Below, piece after piece: positions 2,247 to 45,209 of a DNA stretch of 64,000 nt (position 1 is the stretch's first letter; every line of letters starts with the position of its first letter). The DNA is from Xanthobacteraceae bacterium 501b (GTDB taxonomy: Bacteria > Pseudomonadota > Alphaproteobacteria > Rhizobiales > Xanthobacteraceae), in contig KB899087.1 in the NCBI GenBank assembly GCA_000378025.1, forward strand, positions 3,658,001 to 3,722,000, given 5' to 3'. A model generated the notes under the pieces. It did no database searches. It saw only the letters and a list, made by a program, of their open reading frames with translations, and was not told where the DNA came from. Position numbers and translations under genes: made by a program.

Positions 2247-3986
2247 ATGCAGCTCATCCGGCCCTTCCTGACCTATTACGCTCCCTATAAGGGGCTGTTT
2301 ATGCTCGATTTTTCCTGCGCGGTGCTGTCCGGCCTGCTGGAGCTGGGCTTCCCGCTGGCGGTGAAGCTGTTCATCGACCACCTGCTGCCGGGGCAGGACT
2401 GGCACCTCATCGTCTGGGCCGCGGTGGGCCTGCTGGTGATCTACCTGCTGAACGCGGCGCTGATGGCCATCGTCACCTATTGGGGCCACATGCTCGGCAT
2501 CAATATCGAGACCGAGATGCGCCGGCGCGCCTTCGACCATGTGCAGAAGCTGTCCTTCTCCTATTTCGACAACAACAAGACCGGCCACCTCGTCGCCCGC
2601 CTGACCAAGGACCTGGAGGAGATCGGCGAGGTCGCCCATCACGGCCCCGAGGACGTGTTCATCGCGGTGATGACCTTCGTCGGCGCCTTCCTGGTGATGC
2701 TGAGCGTGAACGTCCACCTTGCGCTTCTCACCGCCATCATCGTGCCCGCCAGCGCGCTGATCACGACCCGCTACGGGCGGCGGATGACGGCGAATTTCCG
2801 CGCGCTATTCGGCCGGGTGGGTGCCTTCAACGCCCGCATCGAGGAGAATATCGGCGGCATCCGCGTGGTGCAGTCCTTCGCCAATGAGGCGCATGAGAGC
2901 CGGCTGTTCGCGGTGGAGAATGCGCATTACCGCAGCACCAAGCTGGAGGCTTACCGGCTGCTGGCGGCCAATGCCTCGCTGTCCTATCTCGGCATGCGGC
3001 TCACCCAGGTCATCATCATGCTGGCCGGCACCTGGTTCGTGCTGCGCGGCGAACTCAGCAATGGCGGCTTTGTCGGCTTCCTCCTGCTGGTCGGGGTGTT
3101 CTTCCGGCCGCTTGAGAAGATCGCGGCAGTCATGGAAGTCTACCCCAAGGGCATTGCCGGGCTGCGCTCCTATCTCGACTTCCTTGCCACCAAGCCCGAT
3201 GTCGCCGACCGCCCCGGCGCGATCGAGCTGGCGGGCGTCAAGGGCGCCATCCGCTATGAGGGCGTGCGCTTCGCCTATGGCAAGGCCGCGCCGGTGCTGA
3301 ACGGGATCGACCTCGACATTCGCGCCGGCGAGAGCGTTGCCTTTGTCGGCCCATCGGGGGCCGGCAAGACCACGCTGTGCTCGCTGCTGCCGCGCTTCTA
3401 CGACGTCACCGGCGGGGGCATCAGCATAGATGGGCACGATATACGCGATGTGCGCCTCGACTCGCTGCGGCGGAACATCGGCATCGTCCAGCAGGACGTG
3501 TTCCTGTTCGGCGGCACGATCCGCGAGAACATCGCCTATGGCCGGCTCGACGCCAGCGAGGCCGCGATCCTCGAGGCGGCCCGCCGGGCGCAGCTCGACG
3601 GGCTGCTCGCGGAGCTGCCGCTCGGGCTCGACACGGTGATCGGCGAGCGCGGGGTGAAGCTGTCGGGCGGGCAGAAGCAGCGGCTCGCCATCGCCCGCAT
3701 GTTCCTGAAAGACCCGCCCATCCTCATTCTCGACGAGGCGACCTCGGCGCTCGACAGCGAGACCGAATGGGAAATCCAGCGGGCGCTGGCGGCGCTCTCG
3801 GTCGGGCGCACCACGCTGATCATCGCCCACCGGCTCTCCACCATCCGCACCGCCGACCGCATCGTCGTCGTCACCCGCGAAGGCATCGCCGAGCAGGGCA
3901 ATCATGCCGAGCTGGTGGCGCGCGGCGGCATCTATGCCCGCATGGTGCGGACCCAGTTCGCCGAGGCGGACCGCATCCCGGCGTAA
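2247..3986 (+). CDS. ABC transporter, fused permease and ATPase (exporter, MsbA/ABCB type)
   Basis: A half-size ABC exporter of 579 residues that should act as a homodimer in the inner membrane. Residues 1-300 carry six hydrophobic helices, with the usual coupling region around SYFDNNKTGHLVARLTKD. The ATPase domain has Walker A (GPSGAGKTT), a Q-loop (GIVQQDVFLFGGTIRENIAYG), the signature LSGGQKQR, Walker B (ILILDEATSALD) and the H-loop (IIAHRLSTI). It starts 21 bases after the siderophore-reductase gene in the same direction. It could therefore export a siderophore or its breakdown product, but this rests on position only. Lipid or drug export is equally possible for this family. Confidence 0.88.
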   Translation: MQLIRPFLTYYAPYKGLFMLDFSCAVLSGLLELGFPLAVKLFIDHLLPGQDWHLIVWAAVGLLVIYLLNAALMAIVTYWGHMLGINIETEMRRRAFDHVQKLSFSYFDNNKTGHLVARLTKDLEEIGEVAHHGPEDVFIAVMTFVGAFLVMLSVNVHLALLTAIIVPASALITTRYGRRMTANFRALFGRVGAFNARIEENIGGIRVVQSFANEAHESRLFAVENAHYRSTKLEAYRLLAANASLSYLGMRLTQVIIMLAGTWFVLRGELSNGGFVGFLLLVGVFFRPLEKIAAVMEVYPKGIAGLRSYLDFLATKPDVADRPGAIELAGVKGAIRYEGVRFAYGKAAPVLNGIDLDIRAGESVAFVGPSGAGKTTLCSLLPRFYDVTGGGISIDGHDIRDVRLDSLRRNIGIVQQDVFLFGGTIRENIAYGRLDASEAAILEAARRAQLDGLLAELPLGLDTVIGERGVKLSGGQKQRLAIARMFLKDPPILILDEATSALDSETEWEIQRALAALSVGRTTLIIAHRLSTIRTADRIVVVTREGIAEQGNHAELVARGGIYARMVRTQFAEADRIPA

Positions 3987-40909: not shown

Positions 40910-41983
40910 TCAGAGCTCGCGTGGCGCGTTCGGCGTGATGAGCCGCCGTGCAAAGACAGCCGCCATGACCGGCACCTGCCAGGGCGCCCGCAGGATCCGC
41001 CGCCCGCCTTCGCCGAACAACGCCTGCGCCGCCCGCAGCGTGTAGTGCCAGCGCGGAGACCTGGCGAAGCGCTCCATCTTCCGCAGTTGCGCCGGGTCGG
41101 CCGGCAGTGGGTTGGGCAGGTCGAAACAGGTCTCGGTGACGGTGAGCAGGCGCTGTGCAGACCTTTCCCATCCCGCCTGCTTCACCCGCGCGAGAAAGGC
41201 CGCCGGCACCGTGCCCGCGAAATCATCATGAACCCGCTGGACAAGATCGAGTGCCTTCACCAGCGGGATTTCGGCAATGCCCAGCCACGATCCTCTGGGG
41301 TCGGTGCATTGCTGCAGCGAGCACAGCAACCGTCCCATCGGGTCGAGCTGGCCGATCCGCAGCCCCTCCCAGTCCAGCCATTCCACGCCCTGCGCCGCCT
41401 CATCGTCCGGCAGCAGGGCCTCATAGGGCGCCACGACGCTGTGGTGCAGCTCGATCCGGGCCATCTCGTCGGGATGGAAGAAGCCCGGAAAATGCCGGGG
41501 GCTCACATTCTCGGGGCCCTCCGAGACATAGCCGAGGCCGCGCAGCACCTGCATCGCCGCGCGCTGCGCGCTCTCTTGCGGCAGCCAGACGTCGAGATCC
41601 ATCATCTGCCGCCCGGCGGCGGGCCCTTCCGGCGGCAGCAGCGTCAGCGCGCCCTTGAGCCAGACCGGCTCCAGCCCGGCCGCGTTGAAGGCGGCGCTCA
41701 CCGTCCGCATCTGCCGCCGGAAGCCCTCATTGCGCTCGGCGTTCCAGTCCGCCACCGCCGCCAGCAGCTCGGCCAGTTCCGCATCGACCCGGTCGAGGAG
41801 CCCGTGACGGACGAGCGTGACGTGAAGGGCGGGAATCAGCCGGTGTTTGTCGGCCTGGGCGAGCAGGTCCTGCCAGGGCGGCGTCGCCGGCCAGTCCGCC
41901 AGCAGCGATTCGCGGGTGGAGAAGGGCGAGACGAGGGCGCCGAGCAGGCGCAGGCCTTCAAGGACGGATGGACGGCTCGGCAT
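40910..41983 (-). CDS. nucleotidyltransferase-like protein (NTP_transf_5 type) beside peptide array
   Basis: A 357-residue protein resembling the uncharacterised nucleotidyltransferase family found next to HPr-kinase-like genes. The core has the fold signature GLEPVWLKGALTLLPP followed by MMDLDVWLP (the D-x-D metal-binding pair), then IELHHSVVAPYE and CSLQQCTDP. AAGGGG lies just before ATG 41983. It is divergent from the six-peptide array and the kinase-like gene at 43890, and such gene types are found together in some lasso-peptide and related clusters. I infer that it modifies a peptide or a partner in this system; the nucleotide and target are unknown. Confidence 0.75.
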   Translation of the reverse strand: MPSRPSVLEGLRLLGALVSPFSTRESLLADWPATPPWQDLLAQADKHRLIPALHVTLVRHGLLDRVDAELAELLAAVADWNAERNEGFRRQMRTVSAAFNAAGLEPVWLKGALTLLPPEGPAAGRQMMDLDVWLPQESAQRAAMQVLRGLGYVSEGPENVSPRHFPGFFHPDEMARIELHHSVVAPYEALLPDDEAAQGVEWLDWEGLRIGQLDPMGRLLCSLQQCTDPRGSWLGIAEIPLVKALDLVQRVHDDFAGTVPAAFLARVKQAGWERSAQRLLTVTETCFDLPNPLPADPAQLRKMERFARSPRWHYTLRAAQALFGEGGRRILRAPWQVPVMAAVFARRLITPNAPREL

Positions 41984-42247
41984 GGCGACCCCTTGACCGG
42001 CGCGGGTGGCGCGAAGCCGCCGCCCGGCCTGCGGCATCCCGGCCAACGCTATGTCAGCCCTCCGGGCCGGGCAAGCGCGCGGCAGGCAAATGCCGAAGCC
42101 GCACACGCCGCATTTCACGCTGGTGTCATAGGACCATTGACGGTAAATTGAAACTACCCTCCATTGTATGCGCCGATGGGGAATGCCTCCGGCGAACGTG
42201 CCGGTCCTGCCTTCCCGGCAACCTTGCTCTCACCTGCGAGACCGACC
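41984..42247. promoter_or_regulatory. divergent promoter region, nucleotidyltransferase / peptide array
   Basis: 264 bases between divergent starts. A rightward TTGACG (42137-42142) is followed by an AT-rich stretch and the box TACCCTCCA (42155-42163), which recurs at 42680-42688 before the third peptide. The stretch is AT-rich relative to the neighbourhood, as expected for a promoter. Confidence 0.45.
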
Positions 42248-42406
42248 ATGCCTCCTTCCCTGCCTGAGCCGGAAAAGACACCCGCCACGGATGAGCGCCG
42301 ACGCGCGGCGTTGCGCCGCCTCGGCCGCGGCGCCGCCTATGCGGTGCCGGCCACCTTGGCGCTAATGACGCTGCGCCGCGCCTCGGCGGCTAGCCCGCCC
42401 GGCTGA
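42248..42406 (+). CDS. array peptide 1 (52 residues)
   Basis: First of six small paralogues. The N-terminus is polar and Pro/Glu-rich (MPPSLPEPEKTPATDE). The shared core RRRAALRRLGRGAAYAVPAT leads to LALMTLRRASA. It ends in ASPPG, longer than the other copies after the A-x-A position. The core is basic then hydrophobic, so it could cross or insert in the membrane. The start at 42248 is the only ATG close to the core; its ribosome site is weak. Function is unknown; see the array finding. Confidence 0.65.
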   Translation: MPPSLPEPEKTPATDERRRAALRRLGRGAAYAVPATLALMTLRRASAASPPG

Positions 42407-42468
42407 CCAGACGGGCTGCCGCACGACACCCGGTTCCCGCTCCCTCCTGAAAAGGCTCCAGCCCGCTA

Positions 42469-42654
42469 ATGACCACGCGAGAGAACGCGCCGCCGCAGGG
42501 CGTGCTCCCCGGCAACGGGCCCGCCCCATCCCCCGCCGCGCCCGCCGACGCCCGTCGCCGCGACGCCTTGCGGCGCCTTGGCCGAGGCGCCGCCTGTGCC
42601 CTGCCGGCCACGCTGGCGATGATGACGATGGACCGGGCCGTCGCCCTCAGTTGA
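42469..42654 (+). CDS. array peptide 2 (61 residues)
   Basis: Second paralogue. A Pro/Ala-rich leader (MTTRENAPPQGVLPGNGPAP) precedes the core ARRRDALRRLGRGAACALPAT and LAMMTMDRAVA, ending in LS. In this copy the Tyr of AAYAVPAT is Cys and Val is Leu. The terminal residue is Ser. It lies 62 bases after copy 1 in the same direction. Confidence 0.65.
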   Translation: MTTRENAPPQGVLPGNGPAPSPAAPADARRRDALRRLGRGAACALPATLAMMTMDRAVALS

Positions 42655-42738
42655 CGCGCGGTCGGTGGAGGTGCATTTTTACCCTCCAGTCTTGGCTGCG
42701 CGTATATCCGCCTTGGCTCAACGAGATGAGGGAGCACC

Positions 42739-42915
42739 ATGGCGACTGATCGCGAATCGACGACCGAGCGGGACACTCCCGCCACCCGCCCTGCGCTGGA
42801 AGGGGCTGAGCTGCGTCGGCGCGCGGCACTGGCCAAGCTCGGCCGCGCCGCCGCCTATAGCGTTCCCGCCACGGTGAGCCTTTTGATGATGTCCCGGTCC
42901 GCCCGGGCAAGCTGA
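42739..42915 (+). CDS. array peptide 3 (58 residues)
   Basis: Third paralogue, below the usual 60-residue cut-off. A GGGAG site lies five bases before ATG 42739. The leader is Thr/Glu/Arg-rich (MATDRESTTERDTPATRP), then LRRRAALAKLGRAAAYSVPAT and VSLLMMSRSARA, ending in a single Ser. The good ribosome site supports translation. Confidence 0.7.
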   Translation: MATDRESTTERDTPATRPALEGAELRRRAALAKLGRAAAYSVPATVSLLMMSRSARAS

Positions 42916-42984
42916 TCGCTGCGGCAGCATCGCTGACAACACAATTCTGCCCCGCTTTTCGCCACCCCTTCGGGATAAGCGCGC

Positions 42985-43182
42985 ATGACACACTCTGACG
43001 ACAGCGACTCCGACAACACCCACGCCGGGACGCAGGCCCCGTCCGCACACCCGGCGCCGACCGAGGCCGTCGACAGCCGCCGGCGCGCGGCGCTGGCGAA
43101 GCTCGGTAAGACGGCCGCCTATGCGGTGCCCGCCACGGTCAGCCTGATGGCGATGAGCCGCTCGGCCCGCGCCTGCGTCTGA
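42985..43182 (+). CDS. array peptide 4 (65 residues)
   Basis: Fourth paralogue. An acidic Asp/Ser/His leader (MTHSDDSDSDNTHAGTQAP) precedes SRRRAALAKLGKTAAYAVPA and TVSLMAMSRSARA, ending CV. It is nearly a duplicate of copy 5 in the core: ten base differences over about 98, of which eight are silent by my reading. The upstream sequence (GGGATAAGCGCGC before ATG) also resembles that of copy 5. Confidence 0.7.
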   Translation: MTHSDDSDSDNTHAGTQAPSAHPAPTEAVDSRRRAALAKLGKTAAYAVPATVSLMAMSRSARACV

Positions 43183-43245
43183 CCGGCGGCCCCGGGGACC
43201 CGGCGCCGCCTTCCGCCTCGCCCCACCGCCTCCGGGAAGCCGCGC

Positions 43246-43437
43246 ATGACCATTTCTGACCACGTGGCCGACGATGTGCCGGCCACCGCTACCCTCCCGA
43301 CCTCCCCTGCGCAGCCAGGCGAGGCGATCGACAACCGCCGGCGCGCCGCGCTGGCGAAGCTTGGCAAGACGGCCGTCTACGCGGTGCCGGCCACGGTGAG
43401 CCTGATGGCGATGACCCGTTCCGCCCGCGCCTGTTGA
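43246..43437 (+). CDS. array peptide 5 (63 residues)
   Basis: Fifth paralogue. The leader MTISDHVADDVPATATLPTS precedes NRRRAALAKLGKTAVYAVPA and TVSLMAMTRSARA, ending in a single Cys. It is the closest relative of copy 4, with which it shares the region before the start, so a recent tandem duplication is likely. Confidence 0.7.
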   Translation: MTISDHVADDVPATATLPTSPAQPGEAIDNRRRAALAKLGKTAVYAVPATVSLMAMTRSARAC

Positions 43438-43545
43438 CCCGCTGCACCGGGGGCATGACAGCGGTTCGGATAAGCCCCGCCCCGGGGCACCTTTGAAGAG
43501 GGCGCCGCCCCCCGGGAGGCGACCGCCGATCGGCCGGAGAAATCG

Positions 43546-43701
43546 ATGTCAGCTGAAGAGAACACCCACCTCGTCAGGAAGCCGCCGACCACCGATGAGC
43601 GCCGGCGCGACGCCCTGCGCCGGCTCGGCAAGGCGGCGACCTATGCCGTACCGGCAACACTCAGCCTGATGGCGATCAAACGCGCGGCGGCGGATAGCTA
43701 G
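43546..43701 (+). CDS. array peptide 6 (51 residues)
   Basis: Sixth and last paralogue, too short for common ORF cut-offs. GGAG lies seven bases before ATG 43546. The leader MSAEENTHLVRKPPTTDE precedes RRRDALRRLGKAATYAVPAT and LSLMAIKRAAA, ending DS. It resembles copy 1 in having DERRR before the core and Ser at the end like copies 2 and 3. Confidence 0.68.
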   Translation: MSAEENTHLVRKPPTTDERRRDALRRLGKAATYAVPATLSLMAIKRAAADS

Positions 43702-43815
43702 AGCCCTTTCGCGCGACGCGGCTCCGCTTCGCGTGCAGAAAATGCGTAAAACAAAAACCTGGAGCCTTTTCGAGCGAAGCGGGTCCGGTTCGCGCGACCC
43801 GAAAGCCCCCGGCAC
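43700..43815. repeat. intergenic palindromic repeat before the kinase-like gene
   Basis: Two related blocks (about 43701-43735 and 43762-43800) share GAGCCYTTTCG and CGAAGCGG/CCGCTTCGCG-type palindromes, separated by AAAATGCGTAAAACAAAAACC. It has the look of a dispersed intergenic repeat. It begins at the stop of peptide 6 and may terminate or trim the array transcript. Confidence 0.45.
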
Positions 43816-43889
43816 GCGCCTCTCCGTCCCAGAACCCCGTGCCCCGAGGGCGGAAAGGCCGACCCGTTTCGCATGACCCCGCAGAGCCC

Positions 43890-45209
43890 ATGACCCCGCA
43901 CCGCGTGCCCACCGACGCCGTCAGCGCGACCGATCCCTCGCCCGAGCGGTTCTATTTCCGCGTCGTCGACCAGATTCTGTTCGTCTTCGACGCCGATGAC
44001 GAGATGGCGCATGCGCTGAACGAGGCGGCGGCGCAGCTGTTCCTCAGCCTGCCCCCGCATTTCCAGCCGATCGCCGCTCTTGCCGCCGAGGCCGGGCTGC
44101 CGCTTGAGGCGCCGCTGCGGGAAAGTCTCGCCGCCTGGGAAGAGCTCGGCTGGATCGAGAGCGACGGTGCCGGGCAGGTGCGGTTGCGGAACACGAGGGG
44201 GCCCCGGTCGGACGCGGCGCGCGCGGCCGACCTCGCCCCGGCTGGCGAGGAGAGGCTGGTGGATGGCTACCAGGTCCGGTTGGCCGGCTCCTCCGTCGCG
44301 TTCCGCCTGTTCGTCAGCGGCGGGCCGGAAGGCCCCGGCGGGGCGGCGACGCTGGACGAGCTATCCGCGTTCGACGACCCGTCCGATCCCGATGGCTTCG
44401 CCGCCCGGCTGGCGAGCGGCCGGCGCATGTTCGGCTTCTTCGGCGGCTTTCTCGATCCCACGCCGGAGCGTCATCCCCCCCTCGCCACCATCGACCTCGT
44501 GGCGACGCCGGAGGGTTTCCTGCTGCGCTGCGGCCCGCGCCGCCTGTTCACCGAGAAGGTGGCGGTCGTGGTCGGCAAGGTGCGGCTCTGGCTGCTCGAT
44601 CTCGTCTATCGCGCGCCCCACCCTTCGGTCTTCGTCCACGGCGCGGCGCTCGCCACCACGGCGGGCGCGGTGGTGATGGCCGGCGTATCCGGCGCCGGCA
44701 AGAGCACGCTTTCCGCCTATCTGGTCACGCGCGGCTGGCGCTTCGGCACGGATGATTCGCTCGCCCTCGGCTTTCGGGACGGCGAGGCGGTGGTGCTGCC
44801 GTGCCCCGGCGCGATCAACGTCAAGCCGGGGAGCACCGCCACCCTGCTGCCCTTCCACCCGCAGCTGGCGGCGCTGCCGCTGATCGGCGTGGGCGAGAAG
44901 CGCGGGCGCTATCTGCCGGTGCCGCTCGCGCTCCACATCGGCGCCGAGGGTGGCGAGAACCATGTCCGCTGCTTCATTTTCCCCCGCTTCGCGGCCGGCT
45001 CGCCGACACGGGTGACGGCGCTCTCCCCGGCACAGGCGCTGCTCGAACTGATGGAAGCGGAGTTCGATCTCGCCGAAGAGGCCGGCGCGGCCGAATTCGA
45101 CGCCTTCTTCGACACGCTGGAGCGGATGCCGCGCTACGCCATCGTCTATAGCGACCTCGTCGAGATGGAAGCCGTGCTGCGCCGGCTGGTGGCGGGCGAG
45201 AGCGCCTGA
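43890..45209 (+). CDS. PqqD-like domain fused to HPr-kinase-like ATPase
   Basis: A 439-residue protein. The N-terminal ~95 residues resemble PqqD/RRE peptide-binding domains (ERFYFRVVDQILFVFDADDE, ALNEAAAQLFLSL). A HPr kinase-like domain follows, with Walker A GVSGAGKST (about 265-273) and the downstream acidic pair in FGTDDSLAL. Related kinases in lasso-peptide clusters phosphorylate the C-terminal Ser of the precursor, and RRE domains bind leader peptides. The fusion directly after six small peptides, several ending in Ser, suggests it recognises and phosphorylates them; this is inference. True HprK is unlikely because no HPr/PTS gene is near and the size and N-terminus differ. ATG 43890 is chosen; an upstream GTG (43839) is possible. 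Confidence 0.72.
   Translation: MTPHRVPTDAVSATDPSPERFYFRVVDQILFVFDADDEMAHALNEAAAQLFLSLPPHFQPIAALAAEAGLPLEAPLRESLAAWEELGWIESDGAGQVRLRNTRGPRSDAARAADLAPAGEERLVDGYQVRLAGSSVAFRLFVSGGPEGPGGAATLDELSAFDDPSDPDGFAARLASGRRMFGFFGGFLDPTPERHPPLATIDLVATPEGFLLRCGPRRLFTEKVAVVVGKVRLWLLDLVYRAPHPSVFVHGAALATTAGAVVMAGVSGAGKSTLSAYLVTRGWRFGTDDSLALGFRDGEAVVLPCPGAINVKPGSTATLLPFHPQLAALPLIGVGEKRGRYLPVPLALHIGAEGGENHVRCFIFPRFAAGSPTRVTALSPAQALLELMEAEFDLAEEAGAAEFDAFFDTLERMPRYAIVYSDLVEMEAVLRRLVAGESA

Follow-up and report, generated by a model that had tools for sequence, protein, structure and literature searches.

The present work concerns positions 40,910 to 45,209 of a 64,000-nucleotide stretch of DNA (hereafter the window) from the genome of Xanthobacteraceae bacterium 501b, which belongs to the genus Ancylobacter. 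With a probability of roughly 0.6, as judged from sequence comparisons, this locus is a lasso-free peptide-tailoring cassette, which would be related to the module that phosphorylates or phosphoglycosylates lasso peptides and would act on peptides nearly devoid of a product core. It consists of a PF14907 nucleotidyltransferase (NTase) gene on the minus strand, followed on the plus strand by six short paralogous open reading frames (ORFs) and by a gene in which an RRE (PqqD-like) domain is fused to an HprK-related kinase. The features are listed below, with peptide positions counted along the segment shared by all six peptides (the shared core):

40910..42118, minus strand: nucleotidyltransferase, PF14907 (NTP_transf_5), Pfam E 4.4e-26; from orthologs, the start is probably the ATG at 41983.
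42248..42406, plus strand: peptide 1, 52 amino acids; Ser at core position 34, then PPG.
42469..42654, plus strand: peptide 2, 61 amino acids; C-terminal Ser.
42739..42915, plus strand: peptide 3, 58 amino acids; C-terminal Ser.
42985..43182, plus strand: peptide 4, 65 amino acids; Cys at core position 34, then a single Val.
43246..43437, plus strand: peptide 5, 63 amino acids; C-terminal Cys.
43546..43701, plus strand: peptide 6, 51 amino acids; C-terminal Ser.
43839..45209, plus strand: RRE (PqqD-like) and HprK-related kinase fusion, assigned by TIGR04352, profile comparison and a predicted model; orthologs point to the ATG at 43890 as the probable start.

An earlier note, made from the letters of the window, had described this layout as six same-direction paralogous ORFs of 51-65 amino acids at 42248-43701, facing an NTase-like gene and accompanied by neither a lasso cyclase nor a protease. 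The layout is borne out. The six peptides form one alignment with 13 invariant columns and a mean column identity of 56%, and the NTase lies on the opposite strand. The eight cassette proteins and the products of the two flanking genes gave no Pfam match to an Asn-synthetase-like lasso cyclase (the wider genome was not searched for one). The B2 leader peptidase PF13471 is missing from the cassette, the only match of the genome being located about 1.05 Mb away, and no radical SAM enzyme was seen at the locus. The motif that the note had given for the peptides is indeed common to them but was drawn slightly too strictly: YAVPAT is exact in four of the six, the other two having CALPAT and YSVPAT, while in two peptides Asp or Lys takes the place of the first Arg of R-x-A-x-A.

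In the proposed mechanism, the N-terminal RRE of the fusion would bind the peptides through the RR-x-AL-x2-LG / YxxP region, and the fused HprK-type kinase would phosphorylate a Ser (or Cys) at or near the peptide end, positioned by a fixed spacing. The PF14907 NTase would add a nucleotide or a hexose to that phosphate, as is reported of PsmN in pseudomycoidin. No lasso ring would be formed; the peptide would be almost wholly leader, with a product core of a few residues at most, and the array would feed several variants (Ser- and Cys-ended) to a single enzyme pair. The putative binding, phosphorylation and capping steps, as well as the identity of the modified residue, are drawn from gene anatomy, conservation, linkage, domains and catalytic residues.

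The kinase domain scored 82.8 bits against TIGR04352 (HPr-rel-A, HprK_rel_A), the named family with the best score, which is under the NCBI cut-off of 200. A profile built from ten cassette kinases matched the HprK structures 3tqf and 1jb1, and in Foldseek the predicted model (pLDDT 80.6) most resembles phosphoenolpyruvate carboxykinase, followed by HprK folds. In an alignment of seven sequences (A6), His250, Gly265, Gly268, Gly270, Lys271, Ser272, Asp288 and Asp289 are invariant. Their spacing (15, 3, 2, 1, 1, 16, 1) is identical to that of the set H148-G163-G166-G168-K169-S170-D186-D187 of BsfK, a proven peptide kinase, which phosphorylates Ser3 of its lasso precursor in a reaction made much faster by its RRE protein (PMC10368454). 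The His-Lys-Asp-Asp set is given as essential in lasso-peptide kinases in reviews (PMC9266682, PMC8498205). On its predicted catalytic residues, the window kinase carries the His-Lys-Asp-Asp set of HprK-type peptide kinases.

The N-terminal domain scored 12.9 bits against TIGR04353 (PqqD_rel_X) when the single sequence was used, the cut-off of 35 not being reached. In profile comparisons, the N-domain of the genus joined those of nine other cassettes with an hhalign probability of 97.5%, and the nine-cassette profile matched lasso RREs of known structure (TfuB1, 6.6e-11; TbiB1, 3e-8). Additionally, the N-domain of the kinase model has three strands and then helices, as expected of the RRE fold. 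From these comparisons the domain is firmly assigned to RREs of the lasso B1 type, an assignment which refers to domain identity only. The PqqD and HPr-kinase fusion of the earlier note is therefore retained, its PqqD-like half on the strength of the profile comparison and not of the single-sequence score. The fusion unites an HprK-related kinase with a PqqD-type domain, the combination that characterizes HPr-rel-A. We infer that an NTase is the usual third gene of such systems, one which the NCBI names do not include.

In the NTase, K114-G115, R129, D133 and D135 are invariant among ten aligned cassette proteins, and the NTases of four other scanned cassettes also match PF14907. The top three Foldseek matches of the predicted model (pLDDT 79) are nucleotidyl- or polyadenylyltransferases (probability 1.00, 0.82 and 1.00). 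Nucleotidyltransferases such as TM1012 and ANT(2'') are matched with a probability near 1, none of the 213 matches having E <0.001. A search of PDB sequences with the NTase profile gave no match up to E 1.

From seven genomes of the genus, 29 peptides were gathered and 28 were scored, the remaining one being an A. polymorphus copy that is read into the NTase remnant and was missed by the script. These peptides are mutually related, and the counts across them are not independent. Their N-terminal part is polar, variable and 15-35 residues long, with lengths that depend on starts set by rule and not by experiment. The shared core, from one residue before the Arg run to the Ser or Cys, is exactly 34 residues in all 28 peptides (27 of them with Ser/Cys) with zero indels. 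At position 34 there are 21 Ser, six Cys and one Arg; the combined Ser and Cys background at core positions 5-33 is 5.9%, versus 27/28 at position 34. Nothing follows this position in 23 peptides, and one or three residues follow it in five. The sole Arg34 belongs to A. polymorphus, the species with a decayed NTase; when this species is left out, core positions 3, 4, 7, 10, 11, 14, 19 and 21 are invariant (26/26). The YxxP motif is found in 25/28.

Core pN/pS was 0.48, 0.36, 0.26 and 0.41 in the four paralog groups, and by this measure the peptide coding sequence is under purifying selection. Between genomes G000 and G276, dN and dS were 0.083 and 0.236 in the leader (three equal-length pairs), and 0.069 and 0.268 in the core (four pairs). 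The core pN/pS values, together with the arrays of three to six peptides of like core that are retained in seven species of the genus, place the array beyond chance. They also make it extremely unlikely that the array consists of decaying or non-expressed paralogs, a possibility to which only A. polymorphus (G077) lends some substance, with an NTase in fragments and peptides with private residues at otherwise strict positions.

Within the genus, the peptides track the kinase. The peptide profile matched 7/30 genomes at E 0.001 or better, the window's own included (a further G276 match, which has an internal stop and is located on a different contig, was not counted as a cassette). Full-length kinase orthologs of 61-100% identity were found in exactly these seven, and two further genomes have weak matches to the kinase part only. 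A near-full NTase match is present in six of the seven, the seventh being G077 with its fragments; elsewhere the NTase matches are a partial one in G256 and weak ones to other NTase genes, including one in G000.

The cassette of the window is bordered by a CitMHS-type transporter gene and an NAD-dependent epimerase gene. In G253, about 250 bases separate these two genes and the cassette is missing from the interval; blastn of the gap revealed only the end of the epimerase gene and no cassette remnant. In the tree of the transporter gene, a single-gene phylogeny, G253 is sister to the cassette-bearing G250 (support 0.97) and is placed within the cassette clade (0.94), which suggests that G253 has lost the whole cassette.

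The two scored peptides of G077 have five and three residues that are absent from the peptides of other genomes, the mean for the other 26 being 0.85. This single case is suggestive of relaxed constraint on the peptides where the NTase has decayed. At A. polymorphus loci L065 (8374-8802) and L138, the first peptide core shares a reading frame with sequence of the NTase region, as would result from a deletion that fused the two, in a naturally decaying cassette.

Beyond the genus, the association was surveyed in 62 sources (the fetched loci and the window), scored with kinase, NTase and peptide profiles; L135-L138, which duplicate genus loci, and short first-look loci were left out. A peptide was accepted at >12 bits within 3 kb of the kinase, and an NTase within 6 kb. 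A regular-expression scan was set aside in favour of the profile model, as it missed the Dechloromonas peptides and gave 119 matches in a reversed control of 360.5 kb. There were 30 full-length RRE-kinase fusions, 29 of them distinct (L067 = L140). A peptide-family ORF was found beside 26/30 and an NTase near 27/30, the G077 remnant included, while control sequence >4 kb from any kinase match contained one peptide match in 305.7 kb. Sixteen of the fusions either belong to the genus or supplied seeds for the peptide model, which leaves 14 as an independent test; ten of these have a peptide (L072, L078, L141, L184-L188, L190 and L203), that of L186 being weak and cut by the contig end. In a phylum-wide search, 20 further loci gave five full-length fusions, four with a peptide. 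The possibility, raised with the array at the outset, that the peptides would not be conserved beside the kinase is contradicted by these counts and by the co-occurrence in the genus.

Short-ended counterparts come from a Bosea and a Dechloromonas metagenome-assembled genome. Each has three short-ended peptides directly before the fusion kinase, then a PF14907 NTase, and the peptides show the genus-type core plus a YxxP(A/L)T motif. Most of the remaining relatives are longer-tailed, with tails often rich in Gly, Ser or Asn. Among ten aligned tailed peptides with RR-x-FL, Ser is at position 37 in nine and at 33 in that of L190. A Ser or Cys occurs somewhere at 32-37 in 17/18 tailed peptides, which is weak evidence given the Ser-rich tails.

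No peptide was recognized at L071, L074, L189 and L191 of the 30 fusions or at L251 of the five, and none appeared when these loci were reread with a looser pattern. At L191, from 3987 onward, one open frame of 764 residues matches both the kinase and the NTase profiles, which suggests a fused RRE-kinase-NTase protein. The five peptide-less loci (5/35 full-length fusions) are in favour of a different view, according to which the kinase and the NTase act on another target, such as a component made of protein or polysaccharide, the peptides serving as regulators or as toxin-antitoxin-like accessories. A glycosyltransferase or sugar transferase near some relatives (L072 and L076) points the same way. 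We consider this view quite improbable. That the kinase carries a fused RRE speaks for a peptide substrate, and the fixed 34-residue core with its Ser/Cys position argues for a modified end. Furthermore, the window cassette is flanked by one transporter gene and one epimerase gene, and the kinase, the NTase and the one peptide tried gave no match to PADLOC anti-phage families at E 0.01.

The tailoring reading is best compared with the phosphorylated lasso peptides. According to reviews, PadeK, ThcoK and SyanK phosphorylate linear lasso precursors at the C-terminal Ser, and pseudomycoidin receives one or two hexoses on its phosphoserine only if PsmN, annotated as a nucleotidyltransferase, is present (PMC9266682, PMC8498205). 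Precursors of the BsfA group are reported to have YxxPxL at -17 to -12 (PMC10368454); in the YxxP peptides of the genus the Leu is one place later, and by our own arithmetic the distance from the YxxP Pro to Ser34 is 15, versus 16 from Pro(-14) to Ser3 of BsfA. With the systems of paeninodin, BsfA and pseudomycoidin, the window cassette shares an RRE of lasso B1 type, an HprK-type kinase with an equal catalytic set and spacing, an NTase gene, a Ser at or near the C-terminus and the YxxP of the precursor. It differs from phosphorylated lasso clusters in that the RRE is fused to the kinase, the peptides are arrayed, some of them end in Cys, and neither a B2 protease nor a cyclase was seen in the cassette. 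Unlike lasso precursors, the peptides have no ring-forming core, with 0-3 residues after position 34 in 28/28 genus peptides.

HPr-rel-A (TIGR04352/TIGR04353) is alike in that it is the best named family of the kinase and a weak one of the N-domain, and in that PqqD-type, HprK and NTase matches are found, in separate frames, in some relatives such as L256 and L257. The window differs from it in the fused RRE-kinase, in scores far under both cut-offs and in peptides nearly without a mature part. The SynChlorMet cassette combines a peptide with PqqD-like and kinase-like proteins. Its ScmC model, TIGR04249, matched the window kinase weakly (11.6 bits, far below the cut-off of 125), and the window differs also in that no radical SAM enzyme was seen. 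The comparison with lasso kinases that the earlier note had drawn holds, given the equal catalytic set and spacing of BsfK and the RRE profile matches to TfuB1 and TbiB1. Its statement that the locus would be of a different class was too strong, because other kinases of the HPr-rel-A neighbourhood, to which that of the window belongs, adjoin peptides of the same broad kind.

Several observations weigh against the tailoring reading. The Ser or Cys is not terminal in 6/28 genus peptides (the five with one or three extra residues and the one with Arg), whereas kinases of the paeninodin type call for a Ser at the C-terminus. In two of the six peptides of the window the available residue is Cys instead of Ser, and no HprK-type kinase is known to us to phosphorylate Cys. 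When the alignment was counted by hand, the three Bosea peptides were found to end in Ser, Ser-Ala and Tyr. From Dechloromonas, two peptides stop at a Ser that comes one or two positions sooner, and the third has Cys at 34 and continues for five residues to another Cys. As longer tails predominate among the other relatives, modification at the C-terminus cannot be a general rule, and the five fusions with no recognizable peptide (4/30 and 1/5) have to be added. The co-occurrence in the genus probably amounts to about one gain and one loss and not to 30 independent events. With close relatives only (A6), the profile retrieved HprK, and at E 0.01 structures of RREs were not among its matches. 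A review does not decide whether PsmN is a glycosyltransferase or a nucleotidyltransferase (PMC9266682). Finally, the changes Y(-17)A and L(-12)A are reported to have left BsfA phosphorylation unaffected (PMC10368454), so the YxxP match is a weak argument.

The main rival explanation is that the peptides are stand-alone signal peptides or membrane anchors of the twin-arginine translocation (Tat) type, with the RRE as an export chaperone and any modification secondary to export of the tail. The window peptides have an RR motif, a moderately hydrophobic stretch and an A-x-A site of the signal-peptidase type, and we take them to resemble the TorA signal of E. coli. By eye, RR-x-F-[LIM] is found in 14/21 tailed relatives, usually followed by A-x-A, and these relatives agree well with the RR-x-F-L consensus of Tat signals (the peptide type of L079 and a second low-complexity match in L078 were left out). 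Moreover, larger Tat-like precursors are located near HprK matches that cover the kinase part only (for example L192, L201, L243, L244 and L254). On the other hand, the position of the Phe is mostly Ala and sometimes Thr in the arrays, nearly all array peptides have basic residues at positions 9 and 12 of the core, and cleavage after A-x-A would free only about 1-5 residues. Tat models (among them TAT_signal and TIGR01409) gave no match for three window peptides at E 10, under filters that drop most weak matches and with a positive control that was itself below the cut-off, so that this result carries little weight. With TAT_signal_seq or formate_TAT, two of six other peptides had weak matches below the cut-off. 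The Tat-type explanation is held to be unlikely; it is compatible with tailoring, as a peptide may receive its modification in the cytoplasm before export.

A further explanation is that a conventional lasso pathway, encoded in trans, processes the peptides, with an unlinked PF13471 (B2-type) protease to remove the leader and a distant cyclase to form the ring. PF13471 is matched at E 3.5e-19 or better in 7/7 cassette genomes of the genus, versus 2/23 of the others (6/23 at any reported level). One of those two is G253, which nests in the same clade of the single-gene tree, and shared ancestry may explain the pattern. In a survey of the order, PF13471 matches occurred in 22/249 genomes. Ten order genomes outside the genus have a full-length fusion (G025, G035, G036, G081, G130, G194, G200, G227, G229 and G245), and only G229 among them has the protease. 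In addition, the genus peptides are too short beyond position 34 to provide a ring and a tail. The orphan lasso-B2-like PF13471 gene, at L218 7009-7515 (G000:C1:2650107-2650457), has no recognizable peptide beside it, and no cyclase was noticed among its neighbours by eye, where no Pfam scan was made. With nine of the ten fusion genomes outside the genus having no PF13471 match, and in view of shared ancestry, the trans pathway was rejected as the principal explanation and is considered very improbable.

The modules of the proposed tailoring cassette and their chemistry have known counterparts; what appears to be new, from the sequence, is a variant without lasso enzymes. In the open literature, as covered by titles and the beginnings of abstracts and with subscription papers mostly outside the search, no description of an HPr-rel-A substrate, of a target of the RRE-bearing, non-lasso kinases or of lasso-free peptides beside such a kinase was found. 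The locus provides a small, defined family of candidate substrates with a fixed candidate site for RRE-bearing, non-lasso HprK-related kinases. If the reading is true, the kinase and NTase tailoring pair would be separable from lasso formation, and a terminal Cys would be added as a possible acceptor. A broader and more tentative idea, which we find possible but doubtful, is that short Tat-like peptides with hardly any core form a class of ribosomal peptides without lasso formation, the leader itself being the product. They would be recognized by the kinase-fused RRE, capped at a terminal Ser or Cys with phosphate and then with a sugar or nucleotide, and would remain as phosphoglyco-peptides that are anchored or exported. 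The tailed relatives would then be unrecognised substrates of many proteobacterial HprK-related kinases. Kinases of the HprK-related kind are widespread; matches to them were found in 66/385 genomes of the class (E 1e-12) and in 57/398 of the phylum (E 1e-15), many of which cover the kinase domain only, some of them being perhaps ordinary HPr kinases.

A search of plasmid records gave one match. Plasmid pMt-1 of Methylobacterium tardum carries a peptide that is not in the annotation table examined; between its NTase and the peptide, an unannotated ORF, PqqD-like by eye, is located at about 3512-3883 (minus strand) of L134.

Other loci differ in their composition. L069 (7488-8342 and 10247-11434) has an HprK-related kinase without an RRE as well as an NTase-like gene, with neighbours that are glycosyltransferase-like by eye. 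At L079 (5259-6446 and 8934-9333), an NTase-like gene, assigned by eye, lies near glycosyltransferase-like genes, and the peptide is of a different type with a KR-x-TLD-x-LAKG motif. The tailed peptides at L068 (7902-8174) and L070 (11035-11280) are from different families and have a common RNGHSGC end, the remaining tails being different. Lastly, HprK-related kinases occur near larger Tat-like precursors at L192, L193, L195, L201, L243, L244, L247 and L254. In all eight precursors read, the mature part contains [ST]-C-W-x-S-[FY], and these proteins are possible substrates of HPr-rel-A systems with unfused parts.

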